Positions 21,274 through 29,071 of a stretch of 64,000 nt of DNA are shown here, one piece after another (positions within the stretch are counted from its first letter, which is position 1; every line of letters starts with the position of its first letter). The position numbers and the translations under genes were made by a program. The stretch comes from Qipengyuania profundimaris (GTDB lineage Bacteria; Pseudomonadota; Alphaproteobacteria; Sphingomonadales; Sphingomonadaceae), in NCBI RefSeq assembly GCF_030717945.1, contig NZ_JAVAIM010000001.1, positions 1,735,131 through 1,799,130 on the forward strand, in the 5' to 3' direction. Below the pieces are notes generated by a model. It was not told the DNA's origin. It was given only the letters and a program-made list of their open reading frames with translations, and made no database searches.

Positions 21274-22503
21274 TCAGCGGCGCAAAATCGCGTGTTTCTT
21301 CTTGCCCAGGCTGAGCTTGATCTCCGTATCGGGCGCCACATTCACAAGGAAACCGGGGTCGCCGACCACCTCGCCGTCCAGCTTGACTGCGCCTTCCGCC
21401 AGCTTGCGCTTCGCCTCGCCATTGGAGGCCGTGAAGCCGAGCGCGGTGAGCGCGGCACCGATCCGCATGCCGTCGCTCCCAACCGAAAGCGAGGGCAGTT
21501 CTTCCCCCGAGCCGCCGCCCGCGAAGGTGTCGCTGGCCGTCTGCGCGGCGGCATTTGCGGCCTCGCGCCCGCGCACCAGTGCGGTGACCTCGGTGGCCAG
21601 CATCGTCTTCGCCTGATTGATCTCGGCACCTTCCAGCGCTTCAAGTCTGGCGATCTCATCCAGCGGAAGATCGGTGAACAGCCGTAGAAAGCGCCCGACA
21701 TCGCGGTCATCGACATTGCGCCAGAACTGCCAGAAGTCGTAGCTTGGTAGCTGGTTCTCGTTGAGCCAGACGGCACCCGCCGCGGTCTTCCCCATCTTCG
21801 ATCCGTCGGCGGTGGTGAGCAGCGGCGTCGTCAGTCCGAACAGCTCGCTGCCATCCATGCGGCGGGCAAGCTCCATGCCATTGACAATATTACCCCACTG
21901 GTCGCTCCCACCCATCTGCAACTGACAGCCATAGCGCTGCGCCAGCTCGCGGAAATCGTAAGCCTGCAGGATCATGTAGTTGAATTCGAGGAACGTCAGC
22001 GGCTGCTCGCGGTCAAGCCGCAGTTTGACCGAATCGAAGGTCAGCATGCGATTGACAGTGAAGTGCGGGCCTACATCGCGCAGCAACTCGATATAGCCGA
22101 GCTCGCTTAGCCACTCGTCATTGTTGACCATCACGGCGTCAGTCGGCCCGTCACCGAAGGTCAGCAGGCGCTCGAAGACCTTGCGGATGCCGGCGATATT
22201 CTTGTCAATATCGGCATCGGTCAGCATTTTACGGCTCTCGTCCTTGCCGCTGGGATCGCCCACCTTGGTCGTGCCGCCCCCCATCACGACGATCGGCTTG
22301 TGCCCGGCCTGCTGCAACCGGCGCAGCATCATGATCTGCACAAGGCTTCCCACGTGCAGCGATGGCGCGGTGGCATCGAAGCCGATATAGCCCGGCACCG
22401 TGCCCTTGGCAGCTAGCGCGTCCAGCGCCTCGCCATTGGTGATCTGGTGAATATAGCCGCGCTCTTCGAGGGTGCGCAGGAGGTCGGAGGAAAAGCTGCT
22501 CAT
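21274..22503 (-). CDS. tyrS: Tyrosyl-tRNA synthetase
   Basis: A 409-residue class I enzyme. The HIGH motif appears as HVGS (SLHVGSLVQ), the KMSKS loop as SKMGKT, and the tyrosine-binding GGSDQWGNI block is intact. A C-terminal S4-like RNA-binding region (about residues 340-405) contacts tRNA. It is monocistronic, divergent from the DOMON-like gene. Confidence 0.97.
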
Positions 22504-22535: not shown

Positions 22536-23078
22536 GTGCAAACGCATGAACTGGTGCCGCATGCCGCCTATCCTGCGGCGAGCGTAACCTCCGTGACGGC
22601 GAAGATCATCGGCCGCGACCCCAATTGGTTGCGTGTCCGTTGGCGCGTCGAGGGCGTGCAGAGCCTTGTCGTACCGAAGTTTGCGGGGCGGGGACGGGCG
22701 GACTGCCTTTGGCAAACCACCTGCTTCGAGATGTTCGTGAAGCCCAAAGGCGGCACGTCATACCTGGAATTGAACCTGTCCCCGTCGGAGCGTTGGAACG
22801 CGTATGCCTTCGATGCGCCGCGAAACGGGATGCGAGAACTCCCCATGGCTCGCGAGCCTGATTGCACCATGCGGCCCGGCAGCAGCTTCGCCATCTTCGA
22901 TGCGGCCATCCCCGCCGATGTGATACCGTCAGTCGATTGCGACTATGGAATGACCTGCATCCTAGAAGAGCAGGGCGGCACGAAAAGTTACTGGGCGCTC
23001 TGCCATTCGGGCGATGTGCCGGATTTCCATGAACCTGCTTGCTTCACGGGCACGCTTGCGGCACCCACCGCGCCATGA
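22536..23078 (+). CDS. DOMON-like domain protein
   Basis: A 180-residue protein without signal peptide, starting at a GTG with AAGGA upstream. The pattern [30 protein letters not shown] followed by [13 protein letters not shown] matches the DOMON-like beta-sandwich proteins (heme or sugar binding in other DOMON families). It is translationally coupled (ATGA) to the NamZ-type muramidase, so a carbohydrate-binding role is tempting, but this is inference. Confidence 0.75.
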
Positions 23079-24277
23079 AATTCGGCATCGACCGCCTTCT
23101 GACCGAAGACGAACTTCGCGCCCCGCTGGCGGGCAAGCGCGTATCGCTGGTGGCGCATCCGGCTTCGGTCACCGCGCAACTGCACCATTCGCTCGACGCG
23201 CTGATCGAACGCGGGGTCAACGTCACCTCTGCCTTCGGGCCGCAGCACGGGCTGAAGGGCGACAAGCAGGACAATATGGTCGAGACGGCGGACGAGACCG
23301 ATCCGCGCCACAATATCCCGGTTTTCAGCCTCTACGGCGAGGTCCGGCGACCGACCGGACAGATGATGTCGACGGCGGACGTTTTCCTGTTCGACCTCCA
23401 AGATCTCGGTTGCCGCATTTACACCTTCGTGACGACGCTGCTCTACCTGATGGAAGAGGCGGCGAAGGCGGGTAAATCGGTCTGGGTTCTTGACCGCCCC
23501 AATCCCGCTGGCGGGCCGGTGGAAGGCACCTTGCTGGTCCCTGGACAGGAAAGCTTCGTCGGCGCGGCGCCCATGCCGATGCGGCACGGCATGACGATGG
23601 GCGAAATGGGCCACTGGTTCAAAGCGCATTTCGACCTCGACCTCGATTACAAGGTGATCGAGATGGTCGGCTGGAAGCCCGGTCATGCGCCCGGCTTTGG
23701 CTGGCCGGAAGACCGGGTATGGATCAATCCGAGCCCGAATGCCGCCACCGTCAATATGGCGCGGGCCTATGCCGGTACCGTCATGATAGAGGGAACGACA
23801 CTGAGCGAGGGTCGCGGGACGACCCGGCCGCTCGAAGTGCTGTTCGGCGCGCCCGATGTCGATGCAGGCGGCGTTATGAAAGAGATGGAGCGACTTGCTC
23901 CTGCATGGCTTCGGGGCTGCGCTTTGCGCGAGTGCTGGTTCGAGCCGACGTTCCACAAGCACGCCGGGAAGCTCTGCAACTCACTGATGATCCACGCGGA
24001 AGGCCCCTTCTACGATCATCACGAGTTCCGACCGTGGCGGCTTCAGGCGCTGGCCTTTAAGGCGATCCGCAACCTCTATCCGGACTACGATCTGTGGCGC
24101 GATTTTCCCTATGAGTACGAGCTAGAGCGACTCGCGATCGACGTGATCAACGGCGGGCCGAGTTTGCGCGAATGGGTGGATGACAGCGAAGCCGAACCCG
24201 GCGACCTGGATAGCCTCGCGGACGCAGACGAAACTGCATGGCGCCAGACAATCGCGCCGCACCTGCTCTACGGATGA
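23075..24277 (+). CDS. namZ: NamZ-type exo-beta-N-acetylmuramidase (DUF1343)
   Basis: A 400-residue DUF1343 (YbbC/NamZ) protein; characterised members release MurNAc from the non-reducing end of peptidoglycan fragments. Diagnostic blocks are FGPQHGLKGDKQDNM near residue 70, FDLQDLGCRIYTFVTTLLYLMEEA, and LDRPNPAGG. No signal peptide is seen, so it would act in the cytoplasm, unlike the secreted Bacillus enzyme. The ATG at 23075 overlaps the DOMON stop, and its own TGA overlaps the hydroxylase start: three coupled genes. Confidence 0.9.
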   Translation: MKFGIDRLLTEDELRAPLAGKRVSLVAHPASVTAQLHHSLDALIERGVNVTSAFGPQHGLKGDKQDNMVETADETDPRHNIPVFSLYGEVRRPTGQMMSTADVFLFDLQDLGCRIYTFVTTLLYLMEEAAKAGKSVWVLDRPNPAGGPVEGTLLVPGQESFVGAAPMPMRHGMTMGEMGHWFKAHFDLDLDYKVIEMVGWKPGHAPGFGWPEDRVWINPSPNAATVNMARAYAGTVMIEGTTLSEGRGTTRPLEVLFGAPDVDAGGVMKEMERLAPAWLRGCALRECWFEPTFHKHAGKLCNSLMIHAEGPFYDHHEFRPWRLQALAFKAIRNLYPDYDLWRDFPYEYELERLAIDVINGGPSLREWVDDSEAEPGDLDSLADADETAWRQTIAPHLLYG

Positions 24278-25236
24278 CCCAGGCCGCGCCGGATTTCGCC
24301 AGTCTTGTGGCTGAAGGCGATGCTCGCCTCGATGCTGGCGATCATCGCGCCGCTTCCGCTTACTACACTGCCGCCTTGAAACAGGCCGAAGCAGGAGCGC
24401 CATATGATCGGCCCACGGCGCAAAGAGCCTTGCGGCGCTTGCAGGACATCGAGCAGGGCTATGTGCGCCATCTCCATGCATCGCTGGAACGGCAGGGCTT
24501 CCCGCAATCGGAATGGCATCCGAGATTTGCCAAAAGCATCGCGATCATGACCGGCCAATTCCAGCGCGAAAACACCGGCGAGCAATATCTCCGAATGCCG
24601 ACGACCTATTTCTATCCCGATCTGCCCTATGCGGAATATTACGATACCGCTGGCTGGTCCTGGGTAGAAGAACTCGAAGCATATACCGAGCAGATCGTCT
24701 CGGAAGCGAAAGCCCTCATGGATGGCGGTGAAACCTTCGCGGCTTACATGAAGCGCACCGAAGACCGCCCACAGGGCAATTCGCACGGTCTGCTCGAGAA
24801 TGACGATTGGAGCACCTTCGATCTTATCGATTCGGAGAAGCCGATCGCGGACCGGGTGAAGCTCTGCCCGCACACCTTTGGTGCGATTACCGACTTCGCT
24901 CCCCAGTGCCGGATACCCAAGCGCGCACCGACGATCATGTTCTCCCTTCTGAAGGCTGGTGCGCACATTCCCCCGCATACCGGGATGCTGAACCCGCGCC
25001 TCATATGCCACCTCCCACTGGTCGTGCCGGGTGACGGGGCCCTCCGGGTCGGCACATCGACGCGCGCTTGGGAAAAAGGTCGGCTGATGGTTTTCGACGA
25101 CACGATCGAACATGAAGCCTGGAACCACTCGCAGACCGACCGCTTGGTCCTGATTTTCGACATCTGGCATCCTGACCTCGACGAAATCGAGCAGGCGCAA
25201 ATCGCGGCGCTGTTCGACGCGGTGGATTCGTATTGA
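24274..25236 (+). CDS. Aspartyl/asparaginyl beta-hydroxylase family protein
   Basis: A 320-residue Fe(II)/2-oxoglutarate oxygenase. The first 90 residues look like a TPR-type helical repeat (DARLDAGDHRAASAYYTAALKQAEA). The catalytic domain shows the family sequence IPPHTGMLNPRLICHLPLVVP (first Fe-binding His) and FDDTIEHEAWNHS (second His, and Arg soon after for 2OG). Substrates of bacterial members include lipid A and peptides; here unknown. Coupled by ATGA to the muramidase upstream. No signal peptide, so cytosolic. Confidence 0.88.
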   Translation: MTQAAPDFASLVAEGDARLDAGDHRAASAYYTAALKQAEAGAPYDRPTAQRALRRLQDIEQGYVRHLHASLERQGFPQSEWHPRFAKSIAIMTGQFQRENTGEQYLRMPTTYFYPDLPYAEYYDTAGWSWVEELEAYTEQIVSEAKALMDGGETFAAYMKRTEDRPQGNSHGLLENDDWSTFDLIDSEKPIADRVKLCPHTFGAITDFAPQCRIPKRAPTIMFSLLKAGAHIPPHTGMLNPRLICHLPLVVPGDGALRVGTSTRAWEKGRLMVFDDTIEHEAWNHSQTDRLVLIFDIWHPDLDEIEQAQIAALFDAVDSY

Positions 25237-25353: not shown

Positions 25354-26646
25354 ATGGCGACAGCGGCACCCACCGGCGCAGCGCAGAGTTCAGTGCGCGC
25401 CACCCTCTGGATTCTGTTGATCGTCTACATCTTCAATTTCATCGACCGGCAGATCGTCAACATCCTGGCCGAACCGATCGCGCAGGATCTGGGTCTGAGC
25501 GATACGCAGATCGGCCTGATGACGGGCCTTGCATTTGCGCTGTTCTACACCGTCCTCGGCCTGCCGATTGCGCGCTATTCCGACAGGCCGACAACGAATC
25601 GACCGCGGTTGATTGCATTGGCCTTGGCGACCTGGTCGGCGATGACCGCGCTGTGCGGCGTAGCGCAGAATTTTATTCAACTGCTTCTCGCCCGCATCGG
25701 CGTCGGTGTGGGAGAGGCCGGTTGCACTCCGCCGGCGCATTCGCTGATTTCAGATCTCGTGCCGCCGGAAAAACGCAGTTCCGCTCTGGCCTTCTATGCG
25801 CTTGGGATCCCGATAGGAACGCTGCTCGGCATGCTCATCGGCGGAGTCCTCGCCGATTGGGTGGGGTGGCGCAGGGCGTTTCTGTTCGTTGGTATTCCGG
25901 GCGTGGTTCTCGCCCTGATTGTGTGGTTCGTCCTGAAAGAGCCGCGCCGTAAGGACAGCCTCGAGGTTCTACGCCAGAGGGGCACCGATGACGTGGTCCC
26001 GTTCTTCAAGGCGATGGGCAAGGTCATGCGCTCGCGCGCCTTCGTCCTGCTTTTATGTGCCGGATCGGCGGCCGCGTTTCTCGCCTATGGCAAGGTCACC
26101 TGGACGACGATCTTCTTCCAGCGGACCCATGGCATGTCGCCGGGCGAGGTCGGCTTCTGGTTCGGCATCGTGAACGGCGCCGCGGGCATCGTGGGGACCG
26201 TGCTCGGCGGCTGGCTTGCGGACCGCTTCGGATCGCAGAACCGTCGCCACGTTCTCACGGCGCCGGCCATAGGCATGGCCGTTGCAGCGCCGATCGCGTT
26301 TCTCGCCTATCAGGCGCAGACTTGGCAGATGGGCCTGATCCTGCTGTTCGTGCCGACGCTGCTGAACTCCTTGTATTACGGACCCACCTACTCCGCGGCG
26401 CAGGGTTTGGTGCCTCTCCGCTCAAGAGCCATCGCGGCCGCAGTTCTCCTGTTCTTCCAGAACCTAATCGGGCTGGGCCTCGGGCCGTTATTCTTCGGCA
26501 TGCTGTCCGACTGGCTGCGCCCAGAATATGGCGAGGAAAGCGTGCGCTACGTCCTCTATGGCGCGGCATTCCTCGGTCTCATTCCGGCATTCTTCTTCTG
26601 GCGATGCAGCCTGCGTCTCAATGACGAGCTGGACAAGCAGGACTAG
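25354..26646 (+). CDS. MFS transporter, Spinster-like
   Basis: A 430-residue, 12-helix transporter. FNFIDRQIVNILAEPIAQDLGLSDTQIGLMTGLAFALFYTVLGLPIARYSDR is typical of Spinster-type MFS proteins common in sphingomonads. The ATG at 25354 has GGGAGAGAG upstream; a TTG at 25309 is unlikely. It lies 117 bp after the hydroxylase on the same strand and could be cotranscribed. Its TAG shares a CTAG with the stop of the convergent secreted protein. Substrate unknown. Confidence 0.9.
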   Translation: MATAAPTGAAQSSVRATLWILLIVYIFNFIDRQIVNILAEPIAQDLGLSDTQIGLMTGLAFALFYTVLGLPIARYSDRPTTNRPRLIALALATWSAMTALCGVAQNFIQLLLARIGVGVGEAGCTPPAHSLISDLVPPEKRSSALAFYALGIPIGTLLGMLIGGVLADWVGWRRAFLFVGIPGVVLALIVWFVLKEPRRKDSLEVLRQRGTDDVVPFFKAMGKVMRSRAFVLLLCAGSAAAFLAYGKVTWTTIFFQRTHGMSPGEVGFWFGIVNGAAGIVGTVLGGWLADRFGSQNRRHVLTAPAIGMAVAAPIAFLAYQAQTWQMGLILLFVPTLLNSLYYGPTYSAAQGLVPLRSRAIAAAVLLFFQNLIGLGLGPLFFGMLSDWLRPEYGEESVRYVLYGAAFLGLIPAFFFWRCSLRLNDELDKQD

Positions 26647-27049: not shown

Positions 27050-27883
27050 TCATACTGGCTCGCGCACCGGGTGAACAAGGCTGACGAGGACGAAGCTGAT
27101 CAGCATCAGCAAGAACCAGCTTCCCAGTTTGGCGAGGCTGACCGGCTGCCAGCCGTCCTCCTGCCCCGGGTAGGTCCAGGCGCGAGCGAAGGTACCGATG
27201 TTCTCTGCACCCCAGATGAATAATGCGACCAGGAAAAATCCAAGCAGCAACGGCATCCAACGATGCGCCAGCCAATTGCGGAAGTGAATTCTCGTCCGCC
27301 AGAACAGCAGAATCGTGACCCCGAACAGCAAATAGCGGACGTCCGGGAGCCAGTGATGGGCGAAGAAGTTCACGTAGATCGCCGCCGCCAGCGCGTAGGT
27401 CGCCCAGCGTGCGGGATAGTGCGAATAGCGAAAGTCGAAGATGCGCCAGACGCGGGCGATGTAGCTTCCTACCGCCGCGTACATGAACCCCGAGAATAGC
27501 GGCACGTCGCCAATCCGCAGCACGCTCGGTTCGGGGTAGATCCACGATCCCGCTGCCGTCTTGAACAGCTCCATCACCGTGCCGACGATGTGGAAGATCA
27601 GGATGACCTTGGCTTCGGACCAAGTCTCGAGCCGGAAGGCCAGCATCGCAGCCTGAATTGCAACGGCTGCCAAGGTGATGAAATCGTATCGGGGCAGGGA
27701 CGCGTCGTCGGGATAATACAGATGCGTCGCTAGAAGCAGGGCCAGCATCAAGCCCCCGAAAAGGCAGGCCCAAGCCTGCTTGAAGCCGAATAGCAGAAAT
27801 TCGTAGAGCCACAGCCGCCAGCCCGTGCCCGGATCGAACTGCTCGAGCCGGTGGCGGACCGCCTCGAAGCGGGTGTGCCGCAA
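27050..27883 (-). CDS. DUF817 multi-TM protein
   Basis: A 277-residue integral membrane protein with about eight helices. The sequence SEAKVILIFHIVGTVMELFKTAAGSWIYPEPS and GFMYAAVGSYIARVWR are characteristic of DUF817, a family with no known function. It is 6 bp downstream of the VWA gene on the same strand and 20 bp above a small secreted protein, so the three probably share a transcript. Confidence 0.88.
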   Translation of the reverse strand: MRHTRFEAVRHRLEQFDPGTGWRLWLYEFLLFGFKQAWACLFGGLMLALLLATHLYYPDDASLPRYDFITLAAVAIQAAMLAFRLETWSEAKVILIFHIVGTVMELFKTAAGSWIYPEPSVLRIGDVPLFSGFMYAAVGSYIARVWRIFDFRYSHYPARWATYALAAAIYVNFFAHHWLPDVRYLLFGVTILLFWRTRIHFRNWLAHRWMPLLLGFFLVALFIWGAENIGTFARAWTYPGQEDGWQPVSLAKLGSWFLLMLISFVLVSLVHPVREPV

Positions 27884-27889
27884 GGCGTC

Positions 27890-29071
27890 CTAACCCTGCT
27901 TGCGGCTCAATTCGCGCATCGCGTCGTCGAGGCCATCCAGCGTCAGCGGATACATCCGGTCGTTTACCAGGTGCTTCATCACCTTTGTCGACTGCGAATA
28001 TCCCCACTGCTTTTCGGGCACGGGATTGAGCCAGACGGTCGCGGGATAGGTGTTGGTGACCCGCTGCATCCAGGTGGCGCCCGCTTCCTCGTTCATATGC
28101 TCCACGCTGCCGCCCGCATGGGTGATCTCATAGGGGCTCATCGCTGCGTCGCCGACGAACGCGACCTTGTAGTCGTGGCCGTATTTGTGGAGGATATCCC
28201 AGGTCTTGGTCCGTTCCTGCCAGCGGCGGCGATTGTCTTTCCATACGCCTTCGTAAAGGCAATTGTGGAAGTAGAAGAATTCGAGATTCTTGAACTCGCT
28301 GGTGGCCGCGCTGAACAGCTCTTCGGTGATCTTGATGAACGGGTCCATCGATCCGCCCACATCTAGGAACAGCAGCAGTTTCACCGCATTGCGCCGTTCC
28401 GGTCGCATATGGATATCGAGCCACCCCTGCTTCGCCGTGCCGTCAATAGTCGCGTCGATATCGAGCTGGTCCGCCGCGCCCTCACGCGCGAAGCGACGCA
28501 GGCGACGCAGCGCCATCTTGATGTTGCGGGTGCCCAGTTCCTTGGTGTTGTCGAGGTTCTTGAACTCGCGCTTGTCCCACACCTTGATCGCGCGCTTGTG
28601 CTTGCTTTCGCCGCCGATCCGCACGCCTTCGGGGTTGTACCCTGAATTGCCGAACGGGCTGGTGCCGCCGGTGCCGATCCACTTGTTGCCGCCCTGATGG
28701 CGCTTTTCCTGCTCCTCGAGCCGCTTTTTCAGCGTCTCCATGATCTCGTCCCAGTCACCAAGCGACTTGATCTTCTCCATCTCCTCGTCGGAGAGGAACT
28801 TCTCGGCGACGGCCTTCAGCCAGTCTTCCGGAATATCGACCGGGTTCTGGCCGTAATCGGACAGGATGCCTTTGAAGACCTTGGCAAAGACCTGGTCGAA
28901 GCGATCGATCAGGCCTTCGTCTTTCACGAAGGTCGCGCGGGAGAGGTAGTAGAAGGCTTCCGGCGTCTGCTCGATCACATCCTTGTCGAGCGCCTCGAGC
29001 AGTGTGAGGTGTTCCTTGAAGCTTGCCGAAATTCCGGCAGCGCGCAGCTCGTCGACGAAATTGAAAAACAT
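27890..29071 (-). CDS. VWA domain protein, CoxE-like
   Basis: A 393-residue cytosolic protein with an N-terminal helical region and a C-terminal von Willebrand A domain. The metal-ion site reads DVGGSMD at residues 237-243 instead of the canonical DxSxS, a substitution I recall as common in this CoxE-type subgroup. These proteins work with MoxR AAA+ ATPases as assembly chaperones; the matching ATPase here lies at 30681-31547, separated by a chemoreceptor gene on the opposite strand. Confidence 0.88.
   Translation of the reverse strand: MFFNFVDELRAAGISASFKEHLTLLEALDKDVIEQTPEAFYYLSRATFVKDEGLIDRFDQVFAKVFKGILSDYGQNPVDIPEDWLKAVAEKFLSDEEMEKIKSLGDWDEIMETLKKRLEEQEKRHQGGNKWIGTGGTSPFGNSGYNPEGVRIGGESKHKRAIKVWDKREFKNLDNTKELGTRNIKMALRRLRRFAREGAADQLDIDATIDGTAKQGWLDIHMRPERRNAVKLLLFLDVGGSMDPFIKITEELFSAATSEFKNLEFFYFHNCLYEGVWKDNRRRWQERTKTWDILHKYGHDYKVAFVGDAAMSPYEITHAGGSVEHMNEEAGATWMQRVTNTYPATVWLNPVPEKQWGYSQSTKVMKHLVNDRMYPLTLDGLDDAMRELSRKQG

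Follow-up and report, generated by a model that had tools for sequence, protein, structure and literature searches.

A conserved DOMON-like/NamZ gene pair occupies the chromosomal place of anmK in Sphingomonadaceae and nearly excludes AnmK

Introduction

The 64,000-nucleotide stretch of Qipengyuania profundimaris DNA analyzed here (hereafter, the window; contig NZ_JAVAIM010000001.1, positions 1,735,131 to 1,799,130) contains three plus-strand genes, at 22536-23078, 23075-24277, and 24274-25236, which encode a DOMON-like protein (gene 1), a NamZ-type protein (gene 2), and an Asp/Asn β-hydroxylase-type protein (gene 3). NamZ enzymes cleave the β-1,4 bond after N-acetylmuramic acid (MurNAc); we take these exo-β-N-acetylmuramidases (formerly DUF1343) to constitute family GH171. 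The locus raises the question of which of the three genes belong together and what a cytosolic NamZ-type protein does there. A first-pass annotation, made from the sequence alone, proposed that the three products recognize, cleave, and oxidize one wall-derived substrate, possibly with a downstream Spinster-type transporter. It overlooked what we consider the main result: the near exclusion between the DOMON-like/NamZ pair and the anhydro-MurNAc kinase AnmK, and the chromosomal slot that the two share.

Results

The DOMON-like and NamZ genes form a conserved unit

The features of the pair are as follows:

22536..23078, plus strand: DOMON-like/CBM9-fold protein, 180 amino acids, GTG start; conserved NamZ partner
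23075..23078, plus strand: ATGA overlap of the DOMON-like and NamZ genes, exact in 70/89 loci and in 73/76 loci of a separate count
23075..24277, plus strand: 400-amino-acid NamZ-type protein, Gln (PQHG) subfamily (PF07075, E = 3.1e-71; PF20732, E = 1.1e-37)
23243..23245, plus strand: codon CAG for Gln57, which aligns with the glutamate of the PEHG motif in other NamZ proteins

DOMON-like, NamZ, and AnmK proteins were scored in 249 Sphingomonadaceae-level genomes (the family sample) and in 210 genomes of Alphaproteobacteria (the class sample); from 37 genomes of the window's own genus, the locus was obtained for 30. NamZ is present in 36 of the 37 own-genus genomes, and the order tyrS, DOMON-like gene, NamZ gene is identical in all 30 loci. 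In the family sample, DOMON-like proteins were found in 170 genomes and NamZ in 172. Every genome with the DOMON-like protein also has NamZ, and the two genomes with NamZ alone, G085 and G141, are fragmented assemblies (380 and 360 contigs). The seven class-sample genomes with a DOMON-like protein all have NamZ too, with the DOMON-like gene just upstream in each case (at a gap of ~0.6 kb in G101). The 76 loci in which the overlap was re-counted come mostly from Qipengyuania, Erythrobacter, Novosphingobium, and their kin. These results show that the DOMON-like and NamZ genes constitute a conserved unit whose members co-occur far above chance (170 of the 172 NamZ genomes).

The pair excludes AnmK and holds its slot beside tyrS

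AnmK was detected with the PF03702 profile, which matches in five control genomes; the window's own genome yielded no PF03702 match. In the family sample, AnmK is present in 76 of 249 genomes and accompanies NamZ only in G092. Just two genomes have neither protein, G211 and G249, whose assemblies are 67% and 88% complete. The single co-occurrence compares with 52.5 expected (Fisher p = 2.7e-60; this value and that of the class comparison below ignore kinship).

The two states also share a chromosomal slot, which in the window is flanked by the following genes:

21274..22503, minus strand: tyrS (PF00579), the divergent gene on one side of the slot, in which either anmK or the pair is found
27890..29071, minus strand: VWA/CoxE-like gene (PF05762), the other flank of the slot

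In the window, tyrS diverges from gene 1 and lies 32 bases upstream of it. Of 59 family regions, 57 show this divergent arrangement of tyrS and the pair, and the two are neighbors in 79 of 80 loci. For anmK, divergence from tyrS was likewise seen, in 26 of the 30 loci compared. Of 20 larger regions around anmK, 19 have tyrS next to it, 6 carry the counterpart of the window's VWA gene on its other side, and none contains a DOMON-like or NamZ gene.

Both states, pair and AnmK, occur within each of five genera (g43, g50, g98, g111, and g112). A GlmU tree of 30 genomes, picked so as to include these mixed-state genera, requires 7 changes between the pair and AnmK, at least 4 of them forced by well-supported branches; a tyrS tree of 82 rows requires 8, at least 3 of them forced. 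Overall, these results show that the pair sits in the AnmK slot next to tyrS and that the pair and AnmK coexist only very rarely.

Also beside the slot, at 27050-27883, is a gene for a DUF817 membrane protein (a family of unknown function), which is clustered in 20 loci.

Gene 2 belongs to a distinct NamZ subfamily

The NamZ-type assignment of gene 2 in the first-pass annotation is borne out by matches to NamZ_N (239.4 bits; cutoff, 26.9) and NamZ_C (130.6 bits; cutoff, 25). Like the NamZ exo-β-N-acetylmuramidases, gene 2 has both domains at full length, and structures 4k05 and 4jja match it by sequence and by fold. It differs from them at the glutamate of the PEHG motif, presumably the catalytic residue of NamZ. 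This position is Gln in 97 of 97 rows of the subfamily and Glu in five other NamZ rows as well as in 4k05 and 4jja, so that alphaproteobacterial NamZ proteins are split by motif into two kinds, PQHG (Gln-type) and PEHG (Glu-type). Approximately 45 further positions are fixed in the Gln subfamily, including H38, D66, E150, E254, and H294; mean column identity in an alignment of 21 gene 2 sequences is 81%. Judged by these residues, gene 2 is a member of a distinct NamZ subfamily, and its other fixed acidic and basic residues are what would be expected of a re-tooled active site.

The Gln subfamily is also set apart by its pairing with a CBM9-fold protein and by its exclusion of AnmK. In addition, Gram-positive NamZ works outside the cell (PMC13204101), whereas gene 2 has no evident signal peptide. 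The same is true of all three gene products when their N termini are judged by eye, in agreement with the first-pass annotation.

The Glu-type NamZ genes of four other alphaproteobacterial genomes (loci L205 to L208 in G311, G512, G320, and G407) lie mostly in apparent catabolic islands for MurNAc and N-acetylglucosamine (GlcNAc). As read from the surrounding genes, these islands contain SIS-domain (MurQ-like) genes, a NagA-like deacetylase, or a BadF-type kinase, and L207 also holds AnmK. In G038 (L209), a Gln-type NamZ gene lacks an adjacent DOMON-like gene. It adjoins a SIS-domain (MurQ-like) gene in back-to-back orientation, and the genes next to them read as NagA-like and as a GntR-type regulator; AnmK lies elsewhere, beside tyrS.

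The exclusion extends beyond the family and away from the slot

Gln-type NamZ was found in 9 of the 210 class-sample genomes. AnmK is present in one of these nine (G396), compared to 160 of the 201 others (Fisher p = 4e-5, again ignoring kinship), and in all four genomes with Glu-type NamZ. Since the Glu-type genomes keep AnmK, muramidase activity alone would not replace it.

The surroundings of Gln-type NamZ in five class-sample genomes (G309, G310, G428, G384, and G488) were read over 12 to 16 kb. No tyrS was found in these regions, and AnmK is absent from the five genomes, too; in G368, the pair adjoins tyrS. The sharing of a slot is thus insufficient on its own to explain the exclusion. 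In G384 and G488, there is also no DOMON-like match. Since these two genomes combine Gln-type NamZ with the absence of both the CBM9-fold protein and AnmK, the CBM9-fold protein would not be strictly required.

Gene 1 is predicted to have a CBM9/DOMON-type fold

Gene 1 has no Pfam match up to E = 0.1 (CBM9 profile included) and no NCBIfam match, and a sequence comparison with the PDB returned only two weak matches to designed proteins. Its AlphaFold2 model has a predicted local distance difference test (pLDDT) score of 96.6. In VIA-align, this model matches 4jpq with Z = 16.0 and the CBM9 modules 7nwn and 1i82 with Z = 12.6 and 11.9, over 150 to 167 residues at 11 to 19% identity. The DOMON-like label of the first-pass annotation thus agrees with the predicted fold, although no Pfam or NCBIfam profile recognizes the protein. 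Gene 1 shares the β-sandwich with CBM9/DOMON-type proteins and differs from CBM9 modules in being stand-alone, cytosolic, and distant in sequence. In an alignment of 48 sequences, its GTG start falls in the ATG start column of its relatives, and H9, W59, C63, E65, E78, N80, R96, W153, F164, and H165 are invariant. Because the predicted fold is that of CBM9 and Trp, Glu, Asn, and Arg residues are conserved, gene 1 likely binds sugar. A further idea, that the DOMON-like protein supplies the catalytic residue lost from Gln-type NamZ, is weakened by G384 and G488, which have neither a DOMON-like match nor AnmK.

The two partners evolve at markedly unequal rates: Across most loci of the genus, identity is 82 to 89% for NamZ and 47 to 67% for the DOMON-like protein (minimum for the latter, 36%, in L012), with the order kept. 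A second, shorter DOMON-like version of ~173 amino acids, 33 to 36% identical to the window's, occupies the same place before NamZ in several genera (L119, L127, L132, L134, L146, L174, and L176, the last two from the window's own genus). The presence of this version in the same place suggests that gene 1 has been exchanged on its own, without NamZ.

AmgK is retained in genomes with the pair

According to two reports, anhydro-MurNAc in Pseudomonas and Caulobacter is processed by AnmK, MupP, AmgK, and MurU (PMC5371407, PMC13046382). AnmK is described as the conserved handler of anhydro-MurNAc in Gram-negative recycling (PMC5371407), the Caulobacter AnmK branch affects tolerance to ampicillin and fosfomycin, and the proposed Caulobacter MupP is encoded beside glmU (PMC13046382). 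We searched the literature for an AnmK alternative or for NamZ in connection with AnmK and found no report of either, with most subscription papers out of reach. A mycobacterial preprint (PMC13041923) describes a different route and concerns MurNAc probes.

An AmgK-like gene lies beside tsaE in every genome of a test set of 30, made up of 20 genomes with NamZ (G384 among them, and G092 with both proteins) and 10 of the AnmK kind. The tsaE-adjacent gene pair of the window's genome has the AmgK and MurU models as its top NCBIfam matches, at scores below the equivalog cutoffs. This genome is therefore similar to Pseudomonas and Caulobacter in having AmgK and MurU homologs and differs from them in lacking AnmK. 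Retention of AmgK without AnmK suggests that free MurNAc is still wanted. A HAD gene adjoins glmU in 27 of 30 genomes, again of both kinds; in the six scanned, it scores higher as a phosphoglycolate phosphatase than as MupP.

The hydroxylase and the downstream transporter are optional neighbors

The remaining features of the locus are as follows:

24274..24277, plus strand: ATGA overlap of the NamZ and hydroxylase genes, within the own genus in closest relatives only
24274..25236, plus strand: Asp/Asn β-hydroxylase-type Fe/2-oxoglutarate protein, 320 amino acids, accessory (PF05118, E = 2.5e-40, 138.3 bits)
25354..26646 (open reading frame from 25309), plus strand: major facilitator superfamily (MFS) transporter, optional neighbor (PF07690, E = 4.8e-63)

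Both ATGA overlaps noted in the first-pass annotation are present, at 23075-23078 and 24274-24277, and its assignment of gene 3 is confirmed by the Asp_Arg_Hydrox profile. The nearest solved structures of gene 3 are those of AspH, and the histidines of the HTG and EHE motifs, which we take to be iron ligands, are both present in the alignment. Gene 3 shares the PF05118 domain and these histidines with the AspH/LpxO/OlsC family but scores far below the cutoffs for LpxO (47 bits; cutoff, 500) and OlsC (85.8 bits; cutoff, 450). The helical-repeat N terminus attributed to it has a counterpart in a TPR_16 match, which is sub-threshold (E = 0.052).

In the own genus, the hydroxylase gene directly follows NamZ in 4 of 30 loci and is not there in 26; it overlaps NamZ in three loci (L001 to L003), and also in L120, from another genus. 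Among the matches listed, it comes within 80 bases after NamZ in at least 15 family genomes; in at least two more it lies on the same strand at a distance of up to 1.6 kb, and in at least one it lies nearby in the other orientation. The hydroxylase thus recurs beside NamZ without being a fixed neighbor, and the trio is an accessory arrangement, not a unit. The first-pass annotation, which treated the three genes as belonging together, suggested a survey of their order in related genomes: The order of the pair is kept, while the trio is rarely adjacent. The downstream MFS gene was matched in 15 of 80 loci, which rules it out as a fixed partner of the pair and does not support its proposed membership in a common route. 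Since hydroxylase and MFS genes are usually absent, neither can be a required step. In G396, which belongs to another family, an MFS gene (PF07690) 33% identical to the window's directly follows the DOMON-NamZ pair (L201:9642-11003).

Discussion

The distribution of the pair indicates that it probably replaces AnmK in some form. We give an even chance to the possibility that it does so by hydrolyzing 1,6-anhydro-MurNAc to MurNAc. In such a scheme, the cytosolic products of genes 1 and 2 would take over the AnmK step of peptidoglycan recycling. The NamZ-like protein would open the internal β-1,6 bond of 1,6-anhydro-MurNAc with water, yielding free MurNAc, which AmgK and MurU would then return to UDP-MurNAc. 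Because this internal bond is on the same residue, a MurNAc-binding site would be a natural starting point for such a hydrolase. Hydrolysis would spare the ATP with which AnmK attaches a 6-phosphate that has to be taken off again. The probable role of the CBM9-fold protein is to hold or present the sugar or to modulate NamZ, and the hydroxylase and the transporter would be accessory. The pair would resemble AnmK in its presumed substrate, in its place ahead of AmgK and MurU, and in its slot beside tyrS. Unlike AnmK, it is not a homolog of that family, gene 2 has the NamZ fold rather than that of a kinase, and the predicted product is MurNAc instead of MurNAc-6-phosphate. As a tentative proposal, to which we give somewhat less credence than to the hydrolysis step itself, the pair may be an ATP-independent 1,6-anhydro-MurNAc hydrolase and the first AnmK alternative, a NamZ-fold enzyme with a relocated active site (Gln in the PEHG motif) and a CBM9-fold partner, having replaced anmK in place several times in sphingomonads and shortened the AnmK-MupP-AmgK route by two steps, one phosphorylation and one dephosphorylation.

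Several observations weigh against this proposal. G092, G396, and G038 contain Gln-type NamZ and AnmK together. Independent pairs on supported branches of the trees go in the expected direction in four cases of four, which is not significant (sign test, p = 0.125). Loss of MupP along with AnmK would be predicted and was not borne out: the glmU-adjacent HAD gene is kept, with scores that favor phosphoglycolate phosphatase over MupP. The loss of the PEHG glutamate could equally mean altered or lost glycosidase activity. Finally, the structural model of gene 2 is of moderate quality and limited use (pLDDT of 74.2, with 46 residues below 50).

Gene 2 could instead be an ordinary cytosolic exo-muramidase that frees MurNAc from MurNAc-led fragments after NagZ has removed GlcNAc, feeding AmgK, so that the exclusion of AnmK would be indirect. 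The retained NamZ domains and fold and the retention of AmgK are consistent with this, as is the location of several Glu-type NamZ genes, and of the Gln-type gene of G038, next to SIS-domain (MurQ-like) genes. We nevertheless regard it as unlikely: lytic transglycosylases would still yield anhydro-MurNAc, for which there would be no enzyme without AnmK, the PEHG glutamate is replaced in gene 2, and the four genomes with Glu-type NamZ all keep AnmK. The exclusion might also reflect two recycling lifestyles, the lineages with the pair importing other wall fragments, meeting no anhydro-MurNAc, and losing an unused AnmK. PMC9790009 reports that some Alphaproteobacteria lack AmpG, which would suit this explanation. 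It appears improbable, since the switches occur within single genera and at one locus while AmgK stays constant, a pattern that a one-step swap fits better.

Much the same low probability applies to the possibility that the interval between tyrS and the VWA gene is a recombination slot in which cassettes compete for place, not function. Across most of the family, the pair and anmK do share one slot, and G396 and G038, with anmK in the tyrS slot and NamZ elsewhere, keep both. On the other hand, the five class-sample genomes with no tyrS in the region read around Gln-type NamZ still lack AnmK, and if the slot were neutral, it would be expected to stand empty often, while only 2 of 249 family genomes have neither AnmK nor NamZ. 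Least probable by far is the recognize-cleave-oxidize route of the first-pass annotation. The overlaps in the window's genome, and the hydroxylase gene directly after NamZ in at least 15 family genomes, above random placement, speak for it. Its absence from that position in 26 of 30 own-genus loci means that it cannot be required, and conservation rules out the trio as one required pathway; the hydroxylase may have a role in some strains. What endures of the earlier idea is the cytosolic wall-sugar theme, which is supported for the pair.

Approximately 70% of the sampled family genomes are without AnmK and carry the pair (172 of 249 with NamZ, 76 with AnmK). If the pair does the job of AnmK, then a large bacterial group recycles its wall with an enzyme not described so far, the muramidase annotation of the Gln-type NamZ proteins is wrong, and the gene 1 proteins, for which neither Pfam nor NCBIfam has a family, would gain a testable role.

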